From Tubulanus polymorphus (taxonomy: Eukaryota > Nemertea > Palaeonemertea > Tubulaniformes > Tubulanidae), in NCBI RefSeq assembly GCF_964204645.1, contig NC_134028.1, positions 27,068,153-27,132,152 of the forward strand: 64,000 nucleotides of DNA, in the 5' to 3' direction. Position numbers and translations under genes: made by a program. Under the pieces are notes generated by a model. The model worked only from the letters and a program-made list of their open reading frames with translations. It made no database searches and was not told where the DNA came from. Positions 33,101 through 64,000 of this stretch are shown here, in pieces (the stretch's first letter is position 1; the number at the start of each line of letters is the position of its first letter).

Positions 33101-36100
33101 ATGGCGTAGGAAGTGGCTCTTCAGGAAGTGCATTGACGCACTAGCGACTGTTCCCGTTGGTCCGGCCGTAGACTGAACCGACCCCACCTCGTACGGAAAA
33201 GAGTCTGAAAATTAACATAGGATATCCGCTCTATGGTCAAACTTATATAAGTTGCAAAAACATTACATAAGAGTTGTGTGGGTGGCGGATGCCAACGACA
33301 CTAGATATTTAAGACCGTTACAGCAGTGATATATAGAGAGTGTAACAATCTCTATATATCACTACTGTGACGGTCTTAAAAATCTACAATGTTGGACAAA
33401 ATAACCATGAATTCATAAATCTCTTGGCCAGTTTATAGACCGGTTAAAAACTATAACCGGATTATGTCGTTTTCTTCTCTTTATTTTCATCTCATGTGTA
33501 TTTTTTCTCCCTCTCTTTTCTAGGGCTGCTTTCTTGAATAAACTAAATGTTGCTTCAAGGCAGTCTTTCATTTAATATTATTACATCTTTAATGCATTTC
33601 CTTATTCATTAATTTTGTAAGAATTTTACTTGAAAATAAATCATATCATATCATAACTACCTCAAACTCAATTCATTGAATAAACCACAGTACACGTACA
33701 CGATTGGTCTACTTGAATACTACCGAATTCATTTACTAGGTTTTACTTAAATTCTGTTCACAAATGTTAAAAAACGAACATTGGAAAAGAACAAATGTTT
33801 ATTCTAGAGTTAAATCTAAACAAGAACTGTAAAACTGGGTCCTGTATTTTTACTTCATTCGTAACCTATAGGCCTACGCATAAACACGCATTTTTAAGTC
33901 CCTTTATCGAAAACGTATTTGGAAATTCAGTAACTTAATTCGTATCAGTAGAATTCCTAAAATTCTGTAAAATATCGGAGCCATCCTACATTCTGCAATT
34001 TTCCCTTACGCCACCCGGTAGCAATAAAACACGTCGATATTTGATTCCAATCATAATTCTAGATTCATTTGAATTGGAATTTATCATATAATCGATTCCT
34101 ATCCATATTTTTAATCTAAAAGAATCTATCAGCATTCATCGCGTATTTCGTAATTCAATTAATCAAATTCGTACACAAACTGTCAGTTCCTGATGCTACC
34201 AAAGTGAACTTGATCCTGTGTACAAAACGAGCATAAATTACGAGCATGAAAAATTAAAATTCAATATAAACAGCGGCGTTGTGCAGTATGAAAATATAAA
34301 ACAGCGACGAATTGACAGTAATCTAAATGTAATCTACGATTCTTCCATGTTTTATTCAAATGATATTGATCGTTTCTACGATAATATTATCTGTAGATGC
34401 ATTAATGAAAAAGACAGTGCATTCTGAATTAAGATTAACCCTTTTCTCTCTACCTACCCGCCGGTGTAAATGGAAAATAGCGCCCGTCATCGAAATCAAT
34501 ATGAAGTCTTATATCCGTCCCTTGCTTCAGTTGAAATATACATTCGAAAGTTGCATTAAGTTCGACGAATCGCGGACAGATCACCTGCAAATCTTTGATC
34601 GATGATTCGACTTGAACGACGGTTGACGCCGTGACTGGTTGTATCATTTCCGGGGTAGACGCTTTCACGGTTATACCCTTAGAACCACCTGAAAAAATAC
34701 CCGTTATTTTCATAACTGTCATCTCAAAAAATAACTAGGGCTAAAATGAAATGATACATGATACATTGTTTCTCGTAATCGGTCGGGTCACTTTTGTAAA
34801 CTGCAATGAAATTTGCAATCAGTTCATTTCTATAACTGCCGGGTTGGTTTATGGTTAGCTTGATCATGATTTAAAAAAAGTAATTGACAGGGTAGAAAAG
34901 TAGGCGGCCTGCCGGGTCAACTTTTAAGCTCAGCTGAAATGAGAAGGTATCAACTGTTTTAGCCTAAATTAAAAACTAAATGAATTAATCATTGCAGCAT
35001 TCTACCACCATACATAGCGCAACACGTTTAACAGGTAGCAGTGTCCTGCTGGTTATAATCTGGCTCTCAAGAAAGTTGATGCCCAAAAGTGGCCTCGGCA
35101 GCACGAAATGAAAGACTGCTGCAAAATTTCACAAAGCTGGAAAAAGTTAACAGGTGAAAATAAGGTTTAAGTGGTAGATTATCTATAGGAGTTCTCTAAC
35201 GTCAAGTTCAAAGTGGTTTAAGCGGGTAAACGAGTTCAGTTAATCGACTCAGGAAGAGGCGTTGCGTTTCTGCATTAACTTCACTCACTATCCAAATGGC
35301 ATAAGTATCATAATTTCAAATGAAGTCAGTTGTACTTCAAAGTACTATCTGTTTTTACGTTTGTCCATTTTTGATACCAGGTTTACACGGCACATTTCAA
35401 CCAATCATAAATTACCACAGAATGATCTGAATACTAAATTGGAGACTCCGAACTTTGTTTTATATGAATTGGTTTTTTACAGTTCAATATTTTGTAAATT
35501 TAGAATAAACCAAGCATCAAACGGACAAAACAGGAAATATCAAAGATTAACAAACAGCTTCACTCTCTATAACTCAGTCTGGTGATATCGAACAAACTCT
35601 TAAAACGCCATTATTTAAATTACCTCTTGATCGAAACACGTGGGTTGTATGTGAATTGTTCGTTGTTGCTACGTAACCGTCGCCAAAATCGTACGTATAC
35701 GTAACATCGGCTCCTAGCGTTACGTTTACGTCAACGTAAACTGTCTCGACGAATGCTTCGATATTTGCACCTAGAATTTTAACGATTAGCGATTTTTATT
35801 GTTATTACGCATGAGGAAGTTTTCATTGTTTACAGTTATCAGGCATTCGCGACATGGCTGACTTGCGGCCTTCTTAGTATCAATCCCCGATTCGTTTCGT
35901 AATTAAGCTGAATTTAAGGTTGAAAGGAAGATTATTTTTCCAAAATGAAACTAGCTGGAAAAATCAGGAAACTCGACGGGAAAAATTCGGTTTTCATTTC
36001 AGCAGGCCGAATATGAACTGAATGACCCATTACGACAATCCCTCAATAGTGCGAACATAGTATGAACATTTGACTATGGAAAGTGTCATAAATGGATAGA

Positions 36101-43749: not shown

Positions 43750-46700
43750 TTAATGCTTATAAGAAGAAGCGATGATATTCTCTCCGCCGAGGTGAAATAT
43801 CTTATCCAACCATCGATCGGGTAGATGAGATAACACGAATACTTTCAGCCGAACTCGTAAATTGGGGACATATCTGGATTTGGGTCTCTCGGAGCAAACC
43901 GCGTCCATCATTTCATCGACCACTTCATTCGGGTTAGGAAGACTCCGACTCAGTACTTTTCGGATGGTTCGTTTGATGAAATGGTCGAAATAAACTTGTC
44001 CGTAAGCTTGTTGTATTTCATGGGGTGAATTGTTCCAATGAGTTGTCGCTTCTTGAGTGACTCGATCGACCGCGGTCAGATTCGTGCTGAAACAATATTT
44101 TCATGACTAGTTTGAAGTGACGTTTGATATCCATTACCCTATAATTCTAAGTTTATTTCTCAAAAAGAAATCATCACAAACTGATTATCTAAAAACGTTA
44201 ATAAAGGTGCCCTAATAAACAGGCATGTAAGAGTCTTTGGTTACACGTAGAATAGAAATGAACTGAGTCTGGTTGAAATAATGCTGTCAAACTCAGTCAC
44301 GCATTTCACCAACTTATTATCAAACATTATTAGTAATGATCATACAAAATGAAGCGAAAAAAGACTTCAAATGAAATCGTCGATCTTTCTGTATTTTTAA
44401 GCACTTTATTAAGATCAGAACCGGCTTAATCTAATTCTGCGTAACCAGCAATAGATGAAAACAAACTTTCATCAAATGGATTTTTTCTATCTTAGAATAG
44501 GGCGGACAAATAACAGGATTAACCCTGTTATTTGAAACAAGGAGTTTGATTTTGATATCGGAAATCGAAGTACAGACATTCGTGTGATGGGCGGTGGTAG
44601 TTATTAGTGGTACATATCAAACTAATGAATGAACTGATTCCTCCTGTAATGAGGTTGTGTTCTGTCACCGTTTATGTCTGTTTGTTAATAACCAGTTAAT
44701 CGAACACACTGAGTTTGGGCCGTTTTAAGGCTATGCTACGCGTTCCCTGTCGTCAGTTCGTGTAGCTCGGGGCATACTACTGAAACTCATTGAAAGGAAA
44801 TTACTTTACATTTGTTACTCCTGAGTGTGATTATAATCAGGCTTAAGAAATGCCATCAAATATATAAGCGCGTAGTCTTTCTGACTGCGTATTATAATGG
44901 ACCAATGATAGGAATTGTCTCATCGTAGTTCAAAAAATGGAAGAGAAAACAATAAAAAATTCAGACCTTTTACATTCATTACCCGAAGAACTTCGAGGTT
45001 ATGTACTATCGGCTCTCAATATACGACCGTCCTTTACCCATAACTCTCTGCGCTATTTCTGAATAGCACAATCGCGTTATTTTCACGCGTCTGCGATTCT
45101 ATGTAGATATATCACCAACACTGTGACACCAGGCCAACACTAGGATAATTACGTTTATCACCAGGCCAACACTAGGGTTTCTGCGTTTATTACCAGGCCA
45201 AAACTAGGGTTTCTGCGTTTATTACCAGGCCAAAACTAGGGTTTCTGCGTTTATTAAACAGGCCAAAACTAGGGTTTCTGCGTTTATTACCAGGCCAAAA
45301 CTAGGGTTTCTGCGTTTATTCACCAGGCCAAAACTAGGGTTTCTGCGTTTATTAAACAGGCCAACACTAGGGTTTCTGCGTTTATTCACAAGGCCAACAC
45401 TAGGGTTTCTGCGTTTATTCACCAGGCCAAAACTAGGGTTTCTGCGTTTATTCACCAGGCCAAAACTAGGGTTTCTGCGTTTATTAAACAGGCCAACACT
45501 AGGGTTACTGCGTTTATTCACAAGGCCAAAACTAGGGTTTCTGCGTTTATTCACCAGGCCAAAACTAGGGTTTCTGCGTTTATTAAACAGGCCAACACTA
45601 GGGTTTCTGCGTTTATTCACCAGGCCAAAACTAGGGTTTCTGCGTTTATTCACCAGGCCAAAACTAGGGTTTCTGCGTTTATTAAACAGGCCAACACTAG
45701 GGTTTCTGCGTTTATTCACAAGGCCAACACTAGGGTTTCTGCGTTTATTCACCAGGCCAAAACTAGGGTTTCTGCGTTTATTCACCAGGCCAAAACTAGG
45801 GTTTCTGCGTTTATTAAACAGGCCAACACTAGGGTTTCTGCGTTTATTCACAAGGCCAAAACTAGGGTTTCTGCGTTTATTCACCAGGCCAAAACTAGGG
45901 TTTCTGCGTTTATTAAACAGGCCAAAACTAGGGTTTCTGCGTTTATTCACCAGGCCAAAACTAGGGTTTCTGCGTTTATTCACCAGGCCAAAACTAGGGT
46001 TTCTGCGTTTATTAAACAGGCCAACACTAGGGTTTCTGCGTTTATTCACCAGGCCAAAACTAGGGTTGCTGCGTTTATTAAACAGGCCAACACTAGGGTT
46101 TCTGCGTTTATTCACCAGGCCAAAACTAGGGTTTCTGCGTTTATTCACCAGGCCAACACTAGGGTTTCTGCGTTTATTCACCAGGCCAACACTAGGGTTT
46201 CTGCGTTTATTCACAAGGCCAACACTAGGGTTTTTGCGTTTATTAAACAGGCCAACACTAGGGTTACTACGTTAATTCACCAGGCCAACTAAATTCTAAT
46301 TCTCTAAACCCTGAACCCTCTAAACCCTCAAACCCAAACCCTAACCCAATTAGAGTTTACAGGGTTAGGGTTTTTTAGGGGGGGGTTAAGCTTTAGAGTA
46401 CCACAATCGCACGCTATCCTTTTGCGATCATATACGATCGTATGAATCGCATTTTACGTTAGTGATATTCAATTCATATAATTGTAGAATTGTAGAATAG
46501 CGTTCTGAAACCATAGAATCGCACATTACACTTTATTTTCTTAAATTATTCTTGAATAGAATCGATCGCAAATACTGTGAGATTGTGCTATTCAGAAATA
46601 CCACACAGTTTTCTATTCACCTGTAAAGGGTCGGTTCTACAGTGCTGACCATCACTTCAAACGCGGCCATTTCTCTCCTCAGACAGTCAGAGAACGCGAT

Positions 46701-55700: not shown

Positions 55701-58700
55701 AGCATCCAGTTCCACTTTTGTGAGTAAAAGTTAACTATGAGTTAAATCTAACTCACAACTGTGTAACTGGCAACTGGCTCTTGTAGGCCTCCCGTTGCCT
55801 GAAAAGTTTGTTCAAGTAAACCAACAGATAAATGCCAAATGCAGTTTCGATTTCCTCCATATCAGTTTTCCTCTGGTTTAGTTAATTTGCCAGTTATCCA
55901 CTCGTTTAATTTAACCAGTTTTAATTGTCATCATGTCAGTTTTACACTGGTTAACTTTTCACTATGTCAGCAATCCACAGATTCATTTGAACCTAATTCA
56001 AAGCAATTGAGCACCTGACAGTTACTGGTATGATAATAGATTGTGAATTGTGTAAATCAATGTTTCGTAGAGAAAATGAACTTCTCAAACATCAACTGAA
56101 GAAATATGTTAATGCTGTACAGTTATTGAGAAGAGAAGGTCTGGCAGCGGAAGGTAAGTCTGTATTATACTCCTCAATCTCAGGTCTATTACTGTCGCTT
56201 ACATAATGTGTGGTATACATGTGTGTTTTGACAGGTAAAATAGGTGTTCATTTAGATGATATTCAGCCAGCAATACCAGCCAGTAAACCACAGATTGATT
56301 ACAGTCACGAAGCATCTGAATATGAAAAGAAGCTCATACAGGTTTGTGTAAAACTATCTCTGATATTGAGAGTGTTGAGAAGTGGTTTCGGTAACAGGAA
56401 GTTATTGATCTATTGTTACAGGTTGCTGAAATGCACGGAGAACTGATCGAATTCAATGAATCACTACACAAACAATTACTATCAAAAGAATCACAATTAA
56501 GAAGACTTCGTCAAGACCTCATTGAACTGAGAGGACCGGTTAGTATGGAACCATTCGCAATGGTGAACCATTTATAATGTATTCATCTAATTTAATCGGT
56601 AAAATTTTAAGACTTTAAAGGTGAACTAGATTTGTTTAGAGTACGAGCTTTCATTACTAGCGCATATAGCAGCTTTAAATGACCAATGGGAGCCGAGATC
56701 TTACAGATTTTCTGATGAAAGTTTCAGTCTAGATAAATTGTGTTTTCAGCTGCCAAATCATCATGAAGAACATACGGATGACAACACCAGCATCTCTTCA
56801 GATGCAGATGTGTAAGTGTTGAAATGGTTGTGTTCACTATTGATAATGTTTTTATATCTGAAGTCCGGGGGGCGGGGTTGGTATATCAGACCTGCTTCCG
56901 GGGGGGGGGGGAGGGGAGTATATCAGACCAGCTTCCCCTACGATATCTCTGTAGTAGTTTATATGATAATTCATGTCTCATTACGATGCTTTTAATCACT
57001 ATCATAAAACATACATTGATCAGTGATTTCTGGTGATAACCATAGAAATTATGATTCCAATATGAATAGCAGCCAATTCAATAAATTATAATATCTAACA
57101 AAAAGCAATGTCAATGCCCGACCTGGGTTTTGGGGGTTATTTGCACTGTAGTTAACCCCAGTTGTATATGTGTGTGTTTGATGTTTGTGTTATTTGATAT
57201 TTAGATTGTCACCAACATCTCGACCATTGATAAACATCTGGATTCCTTCCGCGTTCATGAGAGGTGTAGGAACTGAATCACATCATGTTTATCAGGTCAG
57301 TTTACAATAGATCTGTCGTGTTGAAAACTTGATTGAATTTACACGTAACCAGACCTTCAGCCTGCCAGCATCCATCTGCAACCTGGAACCAGCCCTTCAG
57401 CCTGCCAGCATCCATCTGCAACCTGGAACCAGCCTTTCAGCCTGCCAGCATCCATCGGCAGCCTGGAACCAGCCCTTCAGCCTGCCAGCATCCATCTGCA
57501 GCCTAGAACCAGCCCTTCAGCCTGCCAGCATCCATCTGCAGCCTGGTACCAGCCCTTCAGCCTGCCAGCATCTATTCAGATATTCTGCAGCCTGGAACAC
57601 ATAATCATTGTTATGTGAAATGTGGATGATCAAAAATTCGAACACTGAAAATTGGTGATAAAATGTAAATTGTCTCAAGGTTGCAGGATTCATTCATTAT
57701 TGCCTCACATAAACATCTCACACTAGGCCTATGAGACACATCATTAAGGTGCATGTAGTCACTTTCATCAGCTAATTGTAAAACTTCTGATGTTTGCTGT
57801 TGATAGTCACAGCGGTTTCAAACAGTTGTTCACTAAGTCACCATTATCAGTACCTGTTTGATAAGGCGCGGGCTGATAATAAACAGGGGATTTGACAGCT
57901 AAACGGATGACCCTACGAGTGATCAGCGTTGTGACGGACGATGTGACGGACTGGCTCTGTGTGGGTTTATGAAGGTAGTATGTTGTATTGTAGGTATATG
58001 TTCGTATACGCGATGAAGAATGGACGGTTTATAGAAGATACGCACAGTTTTATGAGTCGCATAATAAACTACGTAAAAAATACGCGATTCTCAACACTTT
58101 CGAATTTCCACCAAAAAAAGCTATAGGAAACAAGGTATGGAAATATTCAATGATTTCACTGACTATTTACCCTTATAAAGTAGTTACTTGTTGCATTATG
58201 AGTATGTGTAATGTATTTATTTCAGGGAGGTAAATTCGTCGAAGATCGACGTAAAAGATTACAGAATTATATTCGTCAAGTTATAAATTGGCTCGTTCAA
58301 AATAATGCACAGTTAGCATCGAACGCTTGCAAGGACAATCTGATCGCATTGGTGCCAGTTCTCGGGTAAGTGTTACTCCCCCCTCTCTCAGACAGGGGTC
58401 AGCCCCCTCTTGCATGTGAAGGCTTTGATTTTAAGATTTAAGACCAGTCTAAACTCATTCTATAGCCGATTGAAATATTTAAGATCAGTGTTATGATTTA
58501 AGGCGTCTATTTGTGGTGACTGAACCCCGGATGATTACTGCCAGTCTGTGTATGACACAATCTTCTCCTTTATTCTTTTTAGTGAGATTCCTGACAAGAA
58601 GAAATCATCAAAAAACCGTCGGAAATCAGCGCCCTCTACGTCACAACCAGCAGGGATTCAGCCAGCACCGGTTGTAGCTGCTGATATGTACATGGGACTT

Positions 58701-58703
58701 TAA
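49757..58703 (+). CDS. SNX29: Sorting nexin-29 (RUN, coiled coil, PX), 18 exons, ~921 aa
   Basis: Exons: 49757-49763, 49860-49974, 50422-50511, 50870-50943, 51215-51389, 52959-53029, 53120-53284, 53472-54081, 54826-55044, 55402-55671, 56071-56153, 56235-56341, 56422-56538, 56642-56811, 57205-57295, 57994-58134, 58226-58365, 58583-58703. The N-terminal RUN domain is clear (LLNRLLDAVKQCQVRFGG, CLCNYWEAVLQHGIK, TTDAGRGRAWLRASLNENSL, AAGLGSILFAIAIDLEGL). A basic patch (KKKEKKKRRKP) and a low-complexity Ser/Thr-rich linker follow. Next come coiled coils (VEEENRQLRALCEVEQETSA and the RENELLKHQ exon). The PX domain has VYVRIRDEEWTVYRRYAQFY and FEFPPKKAIGNK, with the RRY and PPK phosphoinositide elements. 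The tail is basic and ends YMGL. It is a cytosolic or endosomal protein. It is longer than vertebrate SNX29 mainly through the linker. Confidence 0.93.
51940..52105. repeat. ~20/40-bp degenerate tandem repeat in SNX29 intron
   Basis: Alternating CCAGTCCTTGTGACTGGGCC and TCAGCTCTTGTGACTAGACC units, about four pairs, between exons 5 and 6. Confidence 0.8.
52234..52292. repeat. 9-bp tandem repeat GTAGCTGAT/GTAGCTGCT
   Basis: About six copies in the same SNX29 intron. Confidence 0.85.
54106..54510. repeat. 27-bp GC-rich minisatellite beside SNX29 exon 8 donor
   Basis: The unit CAACCCGTGCAGCTGCATCC plus CCTCCAC is repeated about 13 times, starting about 25 bases past the GTAAGT donor at 54082. 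All three frames on both strands stay open for over 100 codons. The exon 8 frame itself meets TAA at once if the intron is retained. Confidence 0.95.
57336..57600. repeat. 40-bp tandem repeat, ~6 copies, SNX29 intron
   Basis: The unit CCAGCCCTTCAGCCTGCCAG then CATCCATCTGCAGCCTGGAA is repeated with few changes, between exons 15 and 16. Confidence 0.9.
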
Positions 58704-58710
58704 AACAACA

Positions 58711-59202
58711 CTAATGTCTATTTCAACCTGTCTTGAGAGCATTCCAGGTGGCCTAGCTTGATCATTTTTGGTAGTACATACCTGATAAAGGTCTTAATAG
58801 GACCAGAAAGGACAGGCAGTCGACCTAAATCATCGTTTTCTAATCCATTTGAAGAATATCCAAAAAGTCTGCATTGAAAGGGGTTAAATGAAGAGAAGTG
58901 ACTCCATGATTTGAAAGTTTAACAATATGTTTCCATGCCTACGTACCAAACTTCAGTTGGTAGGCATGGAAACATATTGTTTAACTTTCAAATCATGGAG
59001 TCACTTCTCTTCATTTAACCCCTTTCAGTGAAGACTTTTTGGATATTCTTCAATACAGTTTCAAATGGATTAAAAAATGATGATTTAGGTCGACTGCCTG
59101 TCCTTTCTGGTCCTATTAAGACCTTTATCAGGTATGTACTACCAAAACTGACTGAGCTAGGCCACCTGGAATGCTCTCAAGTCAGATTGAAATAGACATT
59201 AG
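58711..59202. repeat. ~490-bp fold-back palindrome just after SNX29 stop
   Basis: The left arm starts CTAATGTCTATTTCAACCTG and the right arm ends CAGATTGAAATAGACATTAG. The arms are about 232 bases each and nearly identical, for example ATTTGAAAGTTTAACAATAT opposite ATATTGTTTAACTTTCAAAT. They are separated by about 17 bases (58943-58959). It begins 8 bases after the TAA, inside the expected 3' UTR. It has no coding capacity. Confidence 0.95.
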
Positions 59203-59204
59203 AT

Positions 59205-59330
59205 TCACTTCCACATTTCTCCTGGGTTCACTTCCATATTTCTCCTGGGTTCACTTCCACAGTTCTACTGGGTTCACTTCCACAGTTCTACTGGGTTCAC
59301 TTCCACGGTTTTACTGGGTTCATTTCTAGT
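59205..59330. repeat. ~22-bp tandem repeat, 6 copies
   Basis: The unit CTGGGTTCACTTCCACAGTT(CTA), with CATATTTCTC and ACGGTTTTA variants, abuts the fold-back palindrome. Confidence 0.85.
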
Positions 59331-61343
59331 TCTATTGTACTAGGTTCTACGGGAGTTGGTTTAGTTTAACTCTGGATCCAGTTGTTAATTTCAGAGGATT
59401 AATATTTTCCAATAGAATCCACTCAATTGAGACGAGAAGAAAAAAGCGTGAACGAAGTTTATTTGTGCGTTCGGTTTGTCGCGGTACAAACAATTATGAA
59501 ATTGATTCCACTGATGAATTATTCAGTTTTTTGACAATCAAAATGATGTAATGTATGAAAATGAACAAATCAAAATTTTAAAACGAAACAATTTTTGAAA
59601 ATATTGATCATGAAAATGTGTGTTAAACCCGTGACTAGTGACAGACTAGGCAAATATTGTGTGCGAATTTATTCAGCTTTTTAAATTTTAATTGTATGAA
59701 TGAAAAATGTTTGATATTACCGCCAGATTACAGTAACCTATTTGCTGATTTCACACTGTGTGTGTGTCATCTTAACTGAGCATACAAGTTGACCCGGCCG
59801 GCCAACTGCAGTTTACAAAATGGCCTGCCCGATGAAGAGCATTAATCTTATGATCATTAAATGGCAAATCAGTGATCACCTCAATGTGTCAACTTTAGTC
59901 TCCACGTGTTTAATCGTAATTAAATAATACGGCCAAAGATTGGCCTATAGTCTGTCACAAGGTTTAGAGGTCGCCCTGATCCACAACAATAGTACATCAT
60001 TGTTCTGTATATATCGATAGTGTAGTAATACATATGTATTATTTTAGTGGCTTTATCAGGTCAGATTAAAGATGCCAGTTGAAGGGAGGGGGGGTGGTTC
60101 AAGAGGCATTCCAACGAGTAATTTAATACGTATTACATTTTTGTAAATGTTTTATTTAATTTCGATTGAACATTTTGTAAAGTTGTTAATTTTGTAAATA
60201 GATATTACTCTGATAATCGATATATGGTGCTTGTTTTTCAATGTTGTGCTATAATTGTTCATGTTATAATGATTTGTGTATCTCTACACAAACACTTGTC
60301 AAATTAATCAGAGAATTTGAGGGAATGAAACATTGAAGGTCACCCTGTCACCTGTCACCTTCAATATTAAACCCTTTTCAACGTATGAATGAATTTTATG
60401 GAATGGATTTTAAAACTTGTCAAACTAAAAGAAGATCTGGATTTGATTTAAATTTATGGATTGAATTCAAGATTACAGTAAACCTTGCCTTACTTGGACA
60501 CGGTCATCTCAGAATTTTGACTAACTCGCGCAAAAAGGAAATAATTATTCTCTGACTTCGTATTTTTAATTCGGAATTCGTCTACGTCAAAGATAACCGG
60601 TGGATAAATAGCGGGACCCAGTTCCACAGTTGTGAGTTAGAGTTAACTCCGAGTTAGTTAGTTCATTTTCAATGAGTTAACTCTGAGTCAAATCTTAACT
60701 CAGAACTGTGGAACTGGATCCTGAGTAACTGTTACCCTGGTATTTATCTCAGCTAAAATGGGTACCAGTAAATCAATTTATGAATAACCGCGCTCCACAT
60801 TTAGAATAACTTTTCAATAAGCTCCTAGCTTGTACTGATTTTATCTGCCCCGGGTTGTCAAGGGTTACTGTAACAAGAATGTTGGAATTATTGACGCAAT
60901 TGTGCAGGTTTAGATTGTCGTATGATATAGTGATGATCGGGATATATATATTATGTATTTGAAAATAGATCAAATCAAAAATATAAATATTACAACTTTT
61001 TTGTTTGTTTCTTTGATTTTTAGCCTCGAGATTGTTTTGTATTGAGTGATATTCAAGTTCAATGGCCATGATGAGGAAAACAAACTCAAACTCCTAGAGA
61101 CTGATAACATTAAACATCAACATCTATTCATACACTTAGAATGTTTAATGTTTATTCAATATTTTTTGTGTTAAACAAGTTTATATTTAACATCTGTAAT
61201 TCATAGAATTTCAAAAACGTAGAAATCTTTTTTAACTTATTTGCAGAATGCACTGAACACTGTATCGGTAGAGAGATACATAGATTATTGACACAGTTAT
61301 ACATTTCTTTACTCATTAAATTGTGGTCAATAGATATTTTTTT
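59331..61343. other. Gene-free stretch
   Basis: No exon recognised on either strand. It is AT-rich, possibly including the distal SNX29 3' UTR. It contains the GAGTTAAC inverted-repeat element at 60613-60721. Confidence 0.4.
60613..60721. mobile_element. Small inverted-repeat element, CAGTTCCACAGTT family
   Basis: GGACCCAGTTCCACAGTTGT at the left pairs with GAACTGTGGAACTGGATCC at the right, and internal GAGTTAACTC motifs are palindromic. Related ends occur near 2250-2280, 51000-51120 and 55705-55775. Confidence 0.65.
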
Positions 61344-61652
61344 TCTGTGGAACCTCGTTACAACGAACTTCAGGGCACCATAAAATATATTTGTTATAAC
61401 CGATAGTTTGTTGTCTCAAGTACGAAATTATTATAATTGTCCTATTTGCCGGAGTGGATTTAGGGGGTGGTTTTGGGAGTACAGACCCTTCCCACTTAGG
61501 TTGGCCTTTTCGTTAGGACAGAGGTAGTTAAATTTTTATCTCAGTTTTTCCACAATCTCTGGGGGCTGTGGCTGCTTTATTTCTCCTTGACCAAGCCTCC
61601 TTTCTCTAGATCTGCCCACATCAGAAACGTCGTTATAGCGAGGTTCCACTGT
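61344..61652. mobile_element. MITE-like element with CAGTGGAACCTCG ends
   Basis: Left CTGTGGAACCTCGTTACAACGA and right TCGTTATAGCGAGGTTCCACTG are inverted copies about 305 bases apart. CAG-starting ends followed by CTCG...TAACGA resemble pogo/Tigger-type termini (inference). No transposase. Confidence 0.6.
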
Positions 61653-62801
61653 AATCTCATTTTTGGTAAACGAAAAAAAATTTTAAAAGCAATATTCTTA
61701 AGATGAACACTAAAATGACAGTTAAGACCGGTACGTATAATTCACTAAGTTCTGTATATATAACTCCTGTCAACAACCGAAATCTATTTAAGTTTGGTTG
61801 AATTGGTAATTGCAGAAAGCGACGACTACATTCTATTTATATTCCTATAACAATAACTTGTGTATTTTAAAATTTAAACTATGATTCAACTTAATCAACA
61901 TTTATAATTCATGCGTTACAAGCAGTTTAAATTGATCCTGATAGGAGTGGCACCGATAAAACAGTCCTCTCAAGTATATACACATTAAAGCAGTAAAATC
62001 TAATGATTTCAATCTATATGAATCAATCATCTCAACTGTATTTCATATTTTGCTAGGTGGCTAAGCAGAAATCTGAATGGTCTGTCCTAGAACTGGTCAC
62101 CTCATTTAGATTAACGACGAGGCAGGGATTGATCTAGGAATATGGTGAATTGCGGGGTTGAAAAAAAACTAGAAAAAAATCGGTGTGCTCTGGCGATTTT
62201 TCAGAACCACAAAAATCAACGCAATCGGCAATAAAATCCTAGGCTTGATGGTTAAACCATAGTTCTGATTGGTTGAGACGTGGTCACCTGATATGCAAAT
62301 AGCTCACACCTAACCCAAACCCTGGATTCTGATTGGCATAGATTTTGTCGCATAACTACTGAAAATTCAATTTCAAGTATTTACTGGAGTTTTATTCTAT
62401 TTCTTTCTTTTAATTTTAAAATAGGAATTGACCCTGTTATTCATTTGATCGGTGTCCCTTACAAACCCACCACACCTACTGGGAGCGAAACAGGGTTCGA
62501 TTTTGAAATTCGGTTTAATTCTATTTCAACCAACTGATTATCCTTTCACTAATGATATAGCTTTTTACACAGCGATGCAGAGCTGCTGCCCTCTATAGAG
62601 TATAGGAGAAACTGAGGGCAACATCGAATACGCAATTTAAACAGCAGTAAATTTTAATATGATGAGGATTGAAATCATGTACACACAATATGACTGTGTA
62701 AAATATCGAACTATATTTTACTGAATCATTTCAACATCCATCATTCAGTTTCATATACAAAAAGCCTAATTTTTCGAATATTTTTTAAAGCATAGCCGAT
62801 T
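61653..62801. other. Gene-free stretch with one dispersed repeat
   Basis: No exon recognised. Positions 62400-62525 hold the inverted mate of the repeat at 38023. Confidence 0.4.
62400..62525 (-). repeat. Dispersed repeat copy (pair of 38023-38180)
   Basis: The reverse strand carries CCTGTTTCGCTCCCAGTAGG, TGTGGTGGGTTTGTAAGGGA and the downstream ACAGGGTCAATTCCTATTTT block shared with the other copy. Confidence 0.65.
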
Positions 62802-62993
62802 TCACAAGCGAAAACATTGACTTTGTCGCGGTGAATCAACAGTCAAAATATCTTCAACCAGAATCATCCTTAAAATCCTAACCCCACACCTCTTCATACA
62901 GTTATTATATCTACAAAATCTACATAACATGCCATCCCTTTTGACGGCCTTATTCCCAAAAGTGATAATATCATAATTTGACTCACAATTCAT
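62802..62993 (-). pseudogene. Nuclear-receptor DNA-binding-domain-like fragment
   Basis: The reverse strand encodes KRDGMLCRFCRYNNCMKRCG, which fits the second zinc finger of nuclear receptors (R-x2-C-x2-CR-x3-C-x3-G). The upstream half is abnormal: one expected Cys (after CESNYD) is Ile and the spacing to the next Cys is too long. It opens after a GTGAG or similar acceptor-like site and ends in a stop without a visible donor. No first zinc finger or ligand-binding domain was found. It may be a relic, or an exon of a fast-evolving receptor. Confidence 0.3.
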
Positions 62994-63249
62994 CGTTTAT
63001 GATATTGAAATTTCATCCCGTGCTGAGATTTCACACAAATCAGTTTCAGGCCTGACTGACTAATCAATAACCAAAAGTGCCGGAGATAATTTAGAATTTT
63101 TTAATAATTCCACCCCAGTGTGTTGAATAACGGGCATACCGCTAAAAGTGTGTATGCAGTGCGATGTATCAATACCTACTGAATTTCACTTGGCTTGACA
63201 GGTGCTGCCATCTTTCAATAGAAATAGAGACTAATTGTCAATTACATCA

Positions 63250-63313
63250 GTACACCGCAGTGCGGTGTACTAGCAAAATCCATCACTGATTTATACACCG
63301 CACTGCGGTGTAG
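63250..63313. repeat. Two copies of a perfect ~20-bp palindrome
   Basis: GTACACCGCAGTGCGGTGTAC at about 63250 and TACACCGCACTGCGGTGTA at about 63294. Each is self-complementary around one central base, with central base T/A swapped, so the copies are inverted relative to each other. They lie 20-90 bases beyond the stop of the Josephin gene, in its 3' UTR. Confidence 0.85.
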
Positions 63314-63337
63314 ACACACTGAAAGGGTTGACAAGAT

Positions 63338-63971
63338 TTACAATGAATTCTTATTATCTTCAGTGTTCAATACAGTAAGTTCATGTTTGGTTAGCTCAGC
63401 TGGTTGAACGGGTTCAGTCAGTTCGGTTAGCTCAGCTGTTTGAACGGGTTCAGTCAGTTCGGTTAGCTCAGCTGGTTGAACGGGTTCAGTCAGTTCAGTA
63501 GATTGTGGAAGCTGATTTGCTATGAAAGCGCCATTTGATTGTTTGCGCTGTTCAGTTTGTGGTAAACTATCGCACAGAACGCCGGTGATCTCTTCCTTCC
63601 CGTCCGCTGTCACCGATGTATTAATCGTCAATTTGAATATTCTCTGACTCGACAAATCGACGCCGTTCGGTAAATCAGGATCGACAACTCTCCACGTGCC
63701 GTTCATTTCAACCTCTTTAGATACGATCACTAATAATTCTTTGTCCTGACATTCGAGTTGCTCTTTCAGATACGACAGTAGTTCGGCTGGTTTACCGATT
63801 AATTCTGGAGAGTCTAGTTTAGAGTCAAGGTTGTAATAGACGCCCGAGATGTCTCTTAATGCGATCCAATGTTTACGGTGAATCGGAAATGTGAATATTC
63901 CCCATTTATACTCAGTAGGGATGTTCAGAATGAATCCATGTATGTTTTTCAGACATAAACAGCTAACATCC
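63338..63971 (-). CDS. Josephin-domain deubiquitinase (JOSD1/2-like), 3' exon, partial
   Basis: A TTTCAG acceptor at about 63972-63974 (reverse strand) opens a 634-base terminal exon ending in TAA at 63338-63340. The upstream exons with the catalytic Cys are outside the window. The part seen has EYKWGIFTFPIHRKHWIALR, then GVYYNLDSKL, then PAELLSYLKEQL and ELLVIVSKE. This is the C-terminal half of a Josephin domain with its catalytic His (KHWIAL) and the acidic/amide residue region (YNLDSK). Josephin proteases cleave ubiquitin chains. Small JOSD proteins usually end soon after this point. Here a tail of about 130 residues follows, closing with three 12-residue repeats of the ELTEPVQPAELT type. 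This 36-bp coding repeat lies at 63386-63500. Confidence 0.85.
63386..63500 (-). repeat. 36-bp coding tandem repeat, 3 copies
   Basis: The forward-strand unit is GGTTAGCTCAGCTGGTTGAA then CGGGTTCAGTCAGTTC, nearly identical among copies. In the Josephin gene frame it gives Glu/Thr/Pro-rich 12-mers. Confidence 0.9.
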
Positions 63972-64000
63972 CTGAAATTAGAAAAAAGAGCATTTTTACA

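Follow-up and report, generated by a model that had tools for sequence, protein, structure and literature searches.

A palindrome beside the stop codon of an SNX29-like gene

The window, i.e. the whole stretch of 64,000 nucleotides analysed here, contains the 3' end of an SNX29-like gene, which reads on the forward strand down to a TAA stop codon at 58701..58703. The joined last exons before this stop yield a Pfam PX domain (E 9.7e-15), and the upstream exons 'FRRENELLKHQLKKYVNAVQLLRREG' and 'VAEMHGELIEFNESLHKQLLSKESQLRRLRQDLIELRGP', coiled-coil exons included, we take to resemble those of SNX29. Judged by its sequence, the predicted gene fits SNX29.

Between this stop codon and the palindrome lie 7 bases. 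An inverted-repeat search resolves it into two blocks, 58711-58853/59060-59202 (94%) and 58849-58942/58960-59053 (97%), which together define a left arm of 232 nt (58711..58942, forward strand), an unstranded loop of 17 nt (58943..58959) and a right arm of 243 nt (58960..59202, reverse strand). Between the arms there are scattered substitutions and one gap of ~11 nt, corresponding to bases that are extra in the right arm and absent from the left, and which form the offset between the two blocks. Folded alone as a single strand, the palindrome gives one hairpin of -386 kcal/mol, compared with -113 +/- 7 kcal/mol for dinucleotide shuffles (z = -39.9). The predicted hairpin has 227 pairs, its longest uninterrupted helices being 74 and 48 bp. 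Search and fold thus bear out the 490-bp near-perfect palindrome with a loop of ~17 bases described in the sequence-only reading. An Rfam search over 56000-64000 returned no match. Directly adjoining, and not part of the element described below, is an unstranded 23-bp tandem repeat of 5.3 copies (59204..59326); this minisatellite begins at the element's edge, and related arrays elsewhere mostly have no such element nearby.

Genomic copies, ends and target site

The sequence-only reading had proposed a genome copy search with one arm, and this search identifies the palindrome as one copy of a dispersed family. With the window left arm as query against the same genome (267.8 Mb), 742 first-look candidates led to at least 41 scored places with matches of 89-100% over the left side; the opposite arm lies alongside in nearly all of them, and most of these places are full-length palindromes, found on several chromosomes. 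Copies measure about 490-510 bp, half-size and rearranged forms also being present. The exact 23-base end TAATGTCTATTTCAACCTGACTT occurs 287 times in the genome (144 forward, 143 reverse), while its reversed control does not occur. Of 48 ends in the best copies, 33 (about 69%) are exact, from which some 210 copies with ends in comparable condition are to be expected, a lower bound that leaves more diverged copies uncounted. As the genome holds a couple of hundred copies or more, a palindrome specific to SNX29 is rejected; being one copy of a dispersed family, it is a transposon insertion of an ordinary sort, not something built for SNX29; the tempting false lead of a purpose-built SNX29 hairpin is thereby removed.

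The family has sharp ends, TA followed by ATGTCTATTTCAACCTGACTT...GACAT and again TA, with ATGTCTATTTCAACCTGAC as terminal sequence, and these ends are kept in unrelated flanks. The 22 clean-ended copies begin and end at identical bases, TAATG...CATTA, again between unrelated flanks, which show no direct repeat longer than TA. The target preference is AC-TA-GT: of the 22 copies, 16 have the A and 17 the C before the TA, and 16 have the G after it. One clean case (L025) provides an empty site: this copy interrupts one arm of a further inverted repeat. The uninterrupted arm reads AATAAACTAGTTAACC, and the interrupted one AATAAACTA-[element]-TAGTTAACC. Hence, insertion at ACTAGT duplicates the TA. 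A second copy inside another repeat (L086) agrees with this approximately. Elsewhere, one copy has entered another precisely at its terminal TA, giving an adjoining pair (L064/L074, the latter at G000:C1:16314675-16315918).

Transferred to the window, the boundary common to the genomic copies delimits 58712..59201, i.e. 490 bp without strand and including both flanking TA (58712..58713 and 59200..59201, placed by the ends of copies and the empty site). The element proper spans 58714-59199, and the outermost palindromic bases, C58711 and G59202, belong to the target site and not to the element. An allele of the SNX29 locus without the insertion would show the single-TA site ...ACAACACTAGATTCAC....

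Common ends, unrelated flanks and TA duplication argue for a cut-and-paste DNA transposon, and the absence of coding capacity together with the size of about 490-510 bp makes it a MITE. The window copy is essentially all inverted repeat, below the limit of ~800 bp for such elements with terminal inverted repeats and no coding capacity, and many dispersed copies share its ends; the TA duplication is read from the one clean empty site. We therefore assign the window palindrome, with high confidence, to a family of non-autonomous DNA transposons that duplicate TA and whose members are fully palindromic MITEs of ~500 bp. The family is new, and its kind, the palindromic TA-duplicating MITE, is already known. 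The statement in the sequence-only reading that no transposase is present is true, the element being too short for such a gene, but it is no argument against a transposon that is non-autonomous and numbers a couple of hundred copies or more.

Concerning an autonomous partner, none was found among the DDE_3 and DDE_Tnp_4 loci that were read or the deviating terminal-repeat matches that were followed up, a search that covered part of the transposase repertoire. Eight DDE_3 (PF13358) loci of Tc1/mariner type, some with intact frames of ~360 aa, carry the family's TIR in no case; they end in TACAGGGTGTCC in some instances (Tc1/mariner-like) and otherwise in the rest, not in ATGTCTATTTC. The TA duplication agrees with Tc1/mariner elements, but ends common with a Tc1/mariner transposase gene were not seen at these 8 loci, and because they lack the family's ends we do not claim membership. 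DDE_Tnp_4 (PF13359; Harbinger/ISL2EU type) abounds: of its 150 scored places 5 were read, and none of these has the family's ends. A PF01359 profile search gave no match, nor did its control, which makes this negative uninformative. One exact end pair lying 2.57 kb apart (L069) was considered as an autonomous element and rejected, being a MITE copy that carries other, unrelated repeats. Single unpaired ends are fragments in which no transposase was recognised, and of the 25 places with ends but no MITE arm behind them, the 2 that were read are not transposons with a gene. As a separate observation, DDE_Tnp_4 copies at G000:C1:15911046-15911537 and about 11 other places have identical scores and open frames of 400 aa; these ~12 copies probably belong to a DNA transposon family that was active recently.

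We infer the mobilising transposase, its superfamily and the transcription of the window copy. A transposase acting in trans would have moved the MITE into an ACTAGT-like site downstream of the SNX29 stop. The hairpin is the element's own body, made of two long terminal inverted repeats joined at a short loop, and arrived ready-made.

History of the two arms

Arms were compared over 38 near-full-length copies. Similarity to the window left arm was the criterion for 23 of these, so that agreement among left arms is inflated; copies brought in by their end pattern show the same arm features. The left- and right-arm consensus sequences differ at 26 diagnostic columns, and in 15 of the 38 copies the arms are essentially pure left and right; hence, divergence of the two arms most likely preceded the spread of the family. 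In most other copies the arms are built of blocks: the right arm contains tracts of left type, and in a few copies the left arm contains tracts of right type. The 24 mosaic arms, in 23 distinct patterns, contain 118 runs against 263 +/- 10 after shuffling of the arm-type calls inside the individual arms (none of 5000 shuffles as low). The left-type tracts that many right arms contain point to past exchange between the arms of this family.

The arm identity of the window copy, 0.944, is the second highest of the 38. Its right arm is of left type over diagnostic sites 4-22 of 26, which is why the copy is unusually symmetric. Two further copies (L003 and L026) have almost the same arm pattern, so that the right arm was probably already mosaic when the window copy was inserted.

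A different picture is obtained from rare residues, i.e. those present in <2% of other arms, which are mostly private changes made after insertion: out of 289, none is common to both arms of one copy. Hence, the arms are not equalised in place, and selection for a paired hairpin is not supported. The sequence-only reading had called the palindrome young or maintained. Youth fits the window copy, with ~4 private substitutions over both arms, while in-place maintenance is contradicted by the rare residues and is rejected. Tentatively, the arms of the family may swap sequence during the transposition cycle and not while resident, the near-symmetric class of the window copy arising in this way; the route would be, e.g., hairpin-templated gap repair or template switching. 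If true, such exchange would leave tract-like mosaic arms behind and renew the palindrome periodically. The arms of foldback elements may also exchange sequence. Mosaic arms without in-place equalisation are the only mildly unusual feature here, and the contrast between past exchange, seen in the mosaics, and the absence of common recent changes, i.e. none in place, turns the family into a small natural experiment on when the arms of a palindromic element become equalised.

Competing explanations and the SNX29 transcript

In the sequence-only reading the palindrome would make the SNX29 3' UTR a long double-stranded structure that lends itself to A-to-I editing by ADAR, to retention in the nucleus or to cleavage by Dicer. 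A hairpin selected for such regulation would agree with the position 7 bases after the stop and with the very stable predicted fold, and since no AATAAA is present from the stop (58700) to 61300, transcripts may well run through it. An ATTAAA at 59069, in the right arm, could however end the transcript within the palindrome (others lie at 59856, 59919, 60065, 60366 and 61109), the same hairpin stands at hundreds of unrelated places, and no copy shares a rare residue between its arms, all of which makes a selected regulatory hairpin improbable. Even less probable is an element of foldback or Mutator type in place of a TA-duplicating one: the fully palindromic body with long arms does recall the foldback elements Galileo (PMC4168063) and Tm1 (PMC3169594), but the duplicated site is TA and not 7-9 bp, and the flanks hold no longer direct repeat. 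Foldback or chimeric reads can also yield near-perfect palindromes, and inverted joining of reads was the artefact named in the sequence-only reading; independent copies throughout the family with a common boundary, identical ends and different flanks, together with left/right differences fixed at the 26 diagnostic columns and one clear empty site, exclude it for practical purposes.

With a copy of a TA-duplicating MITE family as the preferred reading, any effect on the SNX29 mRNA (a duplex 3' UTR, editing, retention, or use of the right-arm ATTAAA as poly(A) signal) would be incidental to the insertion. On the evidence of these motifs, the SNX29 transcript may hold the whole predicted hairpin or end within it, and a palindromic transposon family could put long duplex RNA into any transcript that it entered. 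Long duplex RNA, such as the window MITE would give, also arises from inverted pairs of Alu elements in the 3' UTRs of primates; these are, however, two separate retroelement insertions, whereas the MITE is a single DNA transposon that is itself the hairpin. Galileo differs in its target duplications, which are longer than the TA of the window family. Galileo, of the P superfamily, and other foldback elements resemble the family in their very long inverted repeats, which form much of the element (PMC4168063). Human MER53 is likewise non-autonomous, with TA duplication, a palindromic stem-loop and many dispersed copies (PMC2996404), a likeness of description, and measures 193 bp against about 500 bp. 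Since this shorter, mariner-related palindromic MITE is the source of miR-1302 genes, miRNA production being reported for some copies (PMC2996404), dicing of a palindromic MITE may be possible in principle. No direct precedent was found in the literature on palindromic MITEs and editing, or on SNX29 and inverted repeats.

Palindromic repeats are common in this genome, so that one beside a stop codon is unsurprising here. A further palindromic repeat of ~109 bp, 77% self-complementary, lies at 60614-60721 in the probable SNX29 3' region and has at least 40 scored copies (2494 first-look candidates). The inverted pair 20548-20814/21108-21374 has 267-bp arms, 84% identical and ~290 bp apart, with at least 40 genomic copies of the arm at 91% or more, and a compact 85-bp palindrome, 89% self-complementary, occupies 33302-33386. 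Tandem repeats are also present: a 40-bp unit in 5.7 copies at 57347-57572, probably in an SNX29 intron, and a ~1-kb array at 45208-46292 whose two strands both carry open frames (RPKLGFLRLFT... among them).
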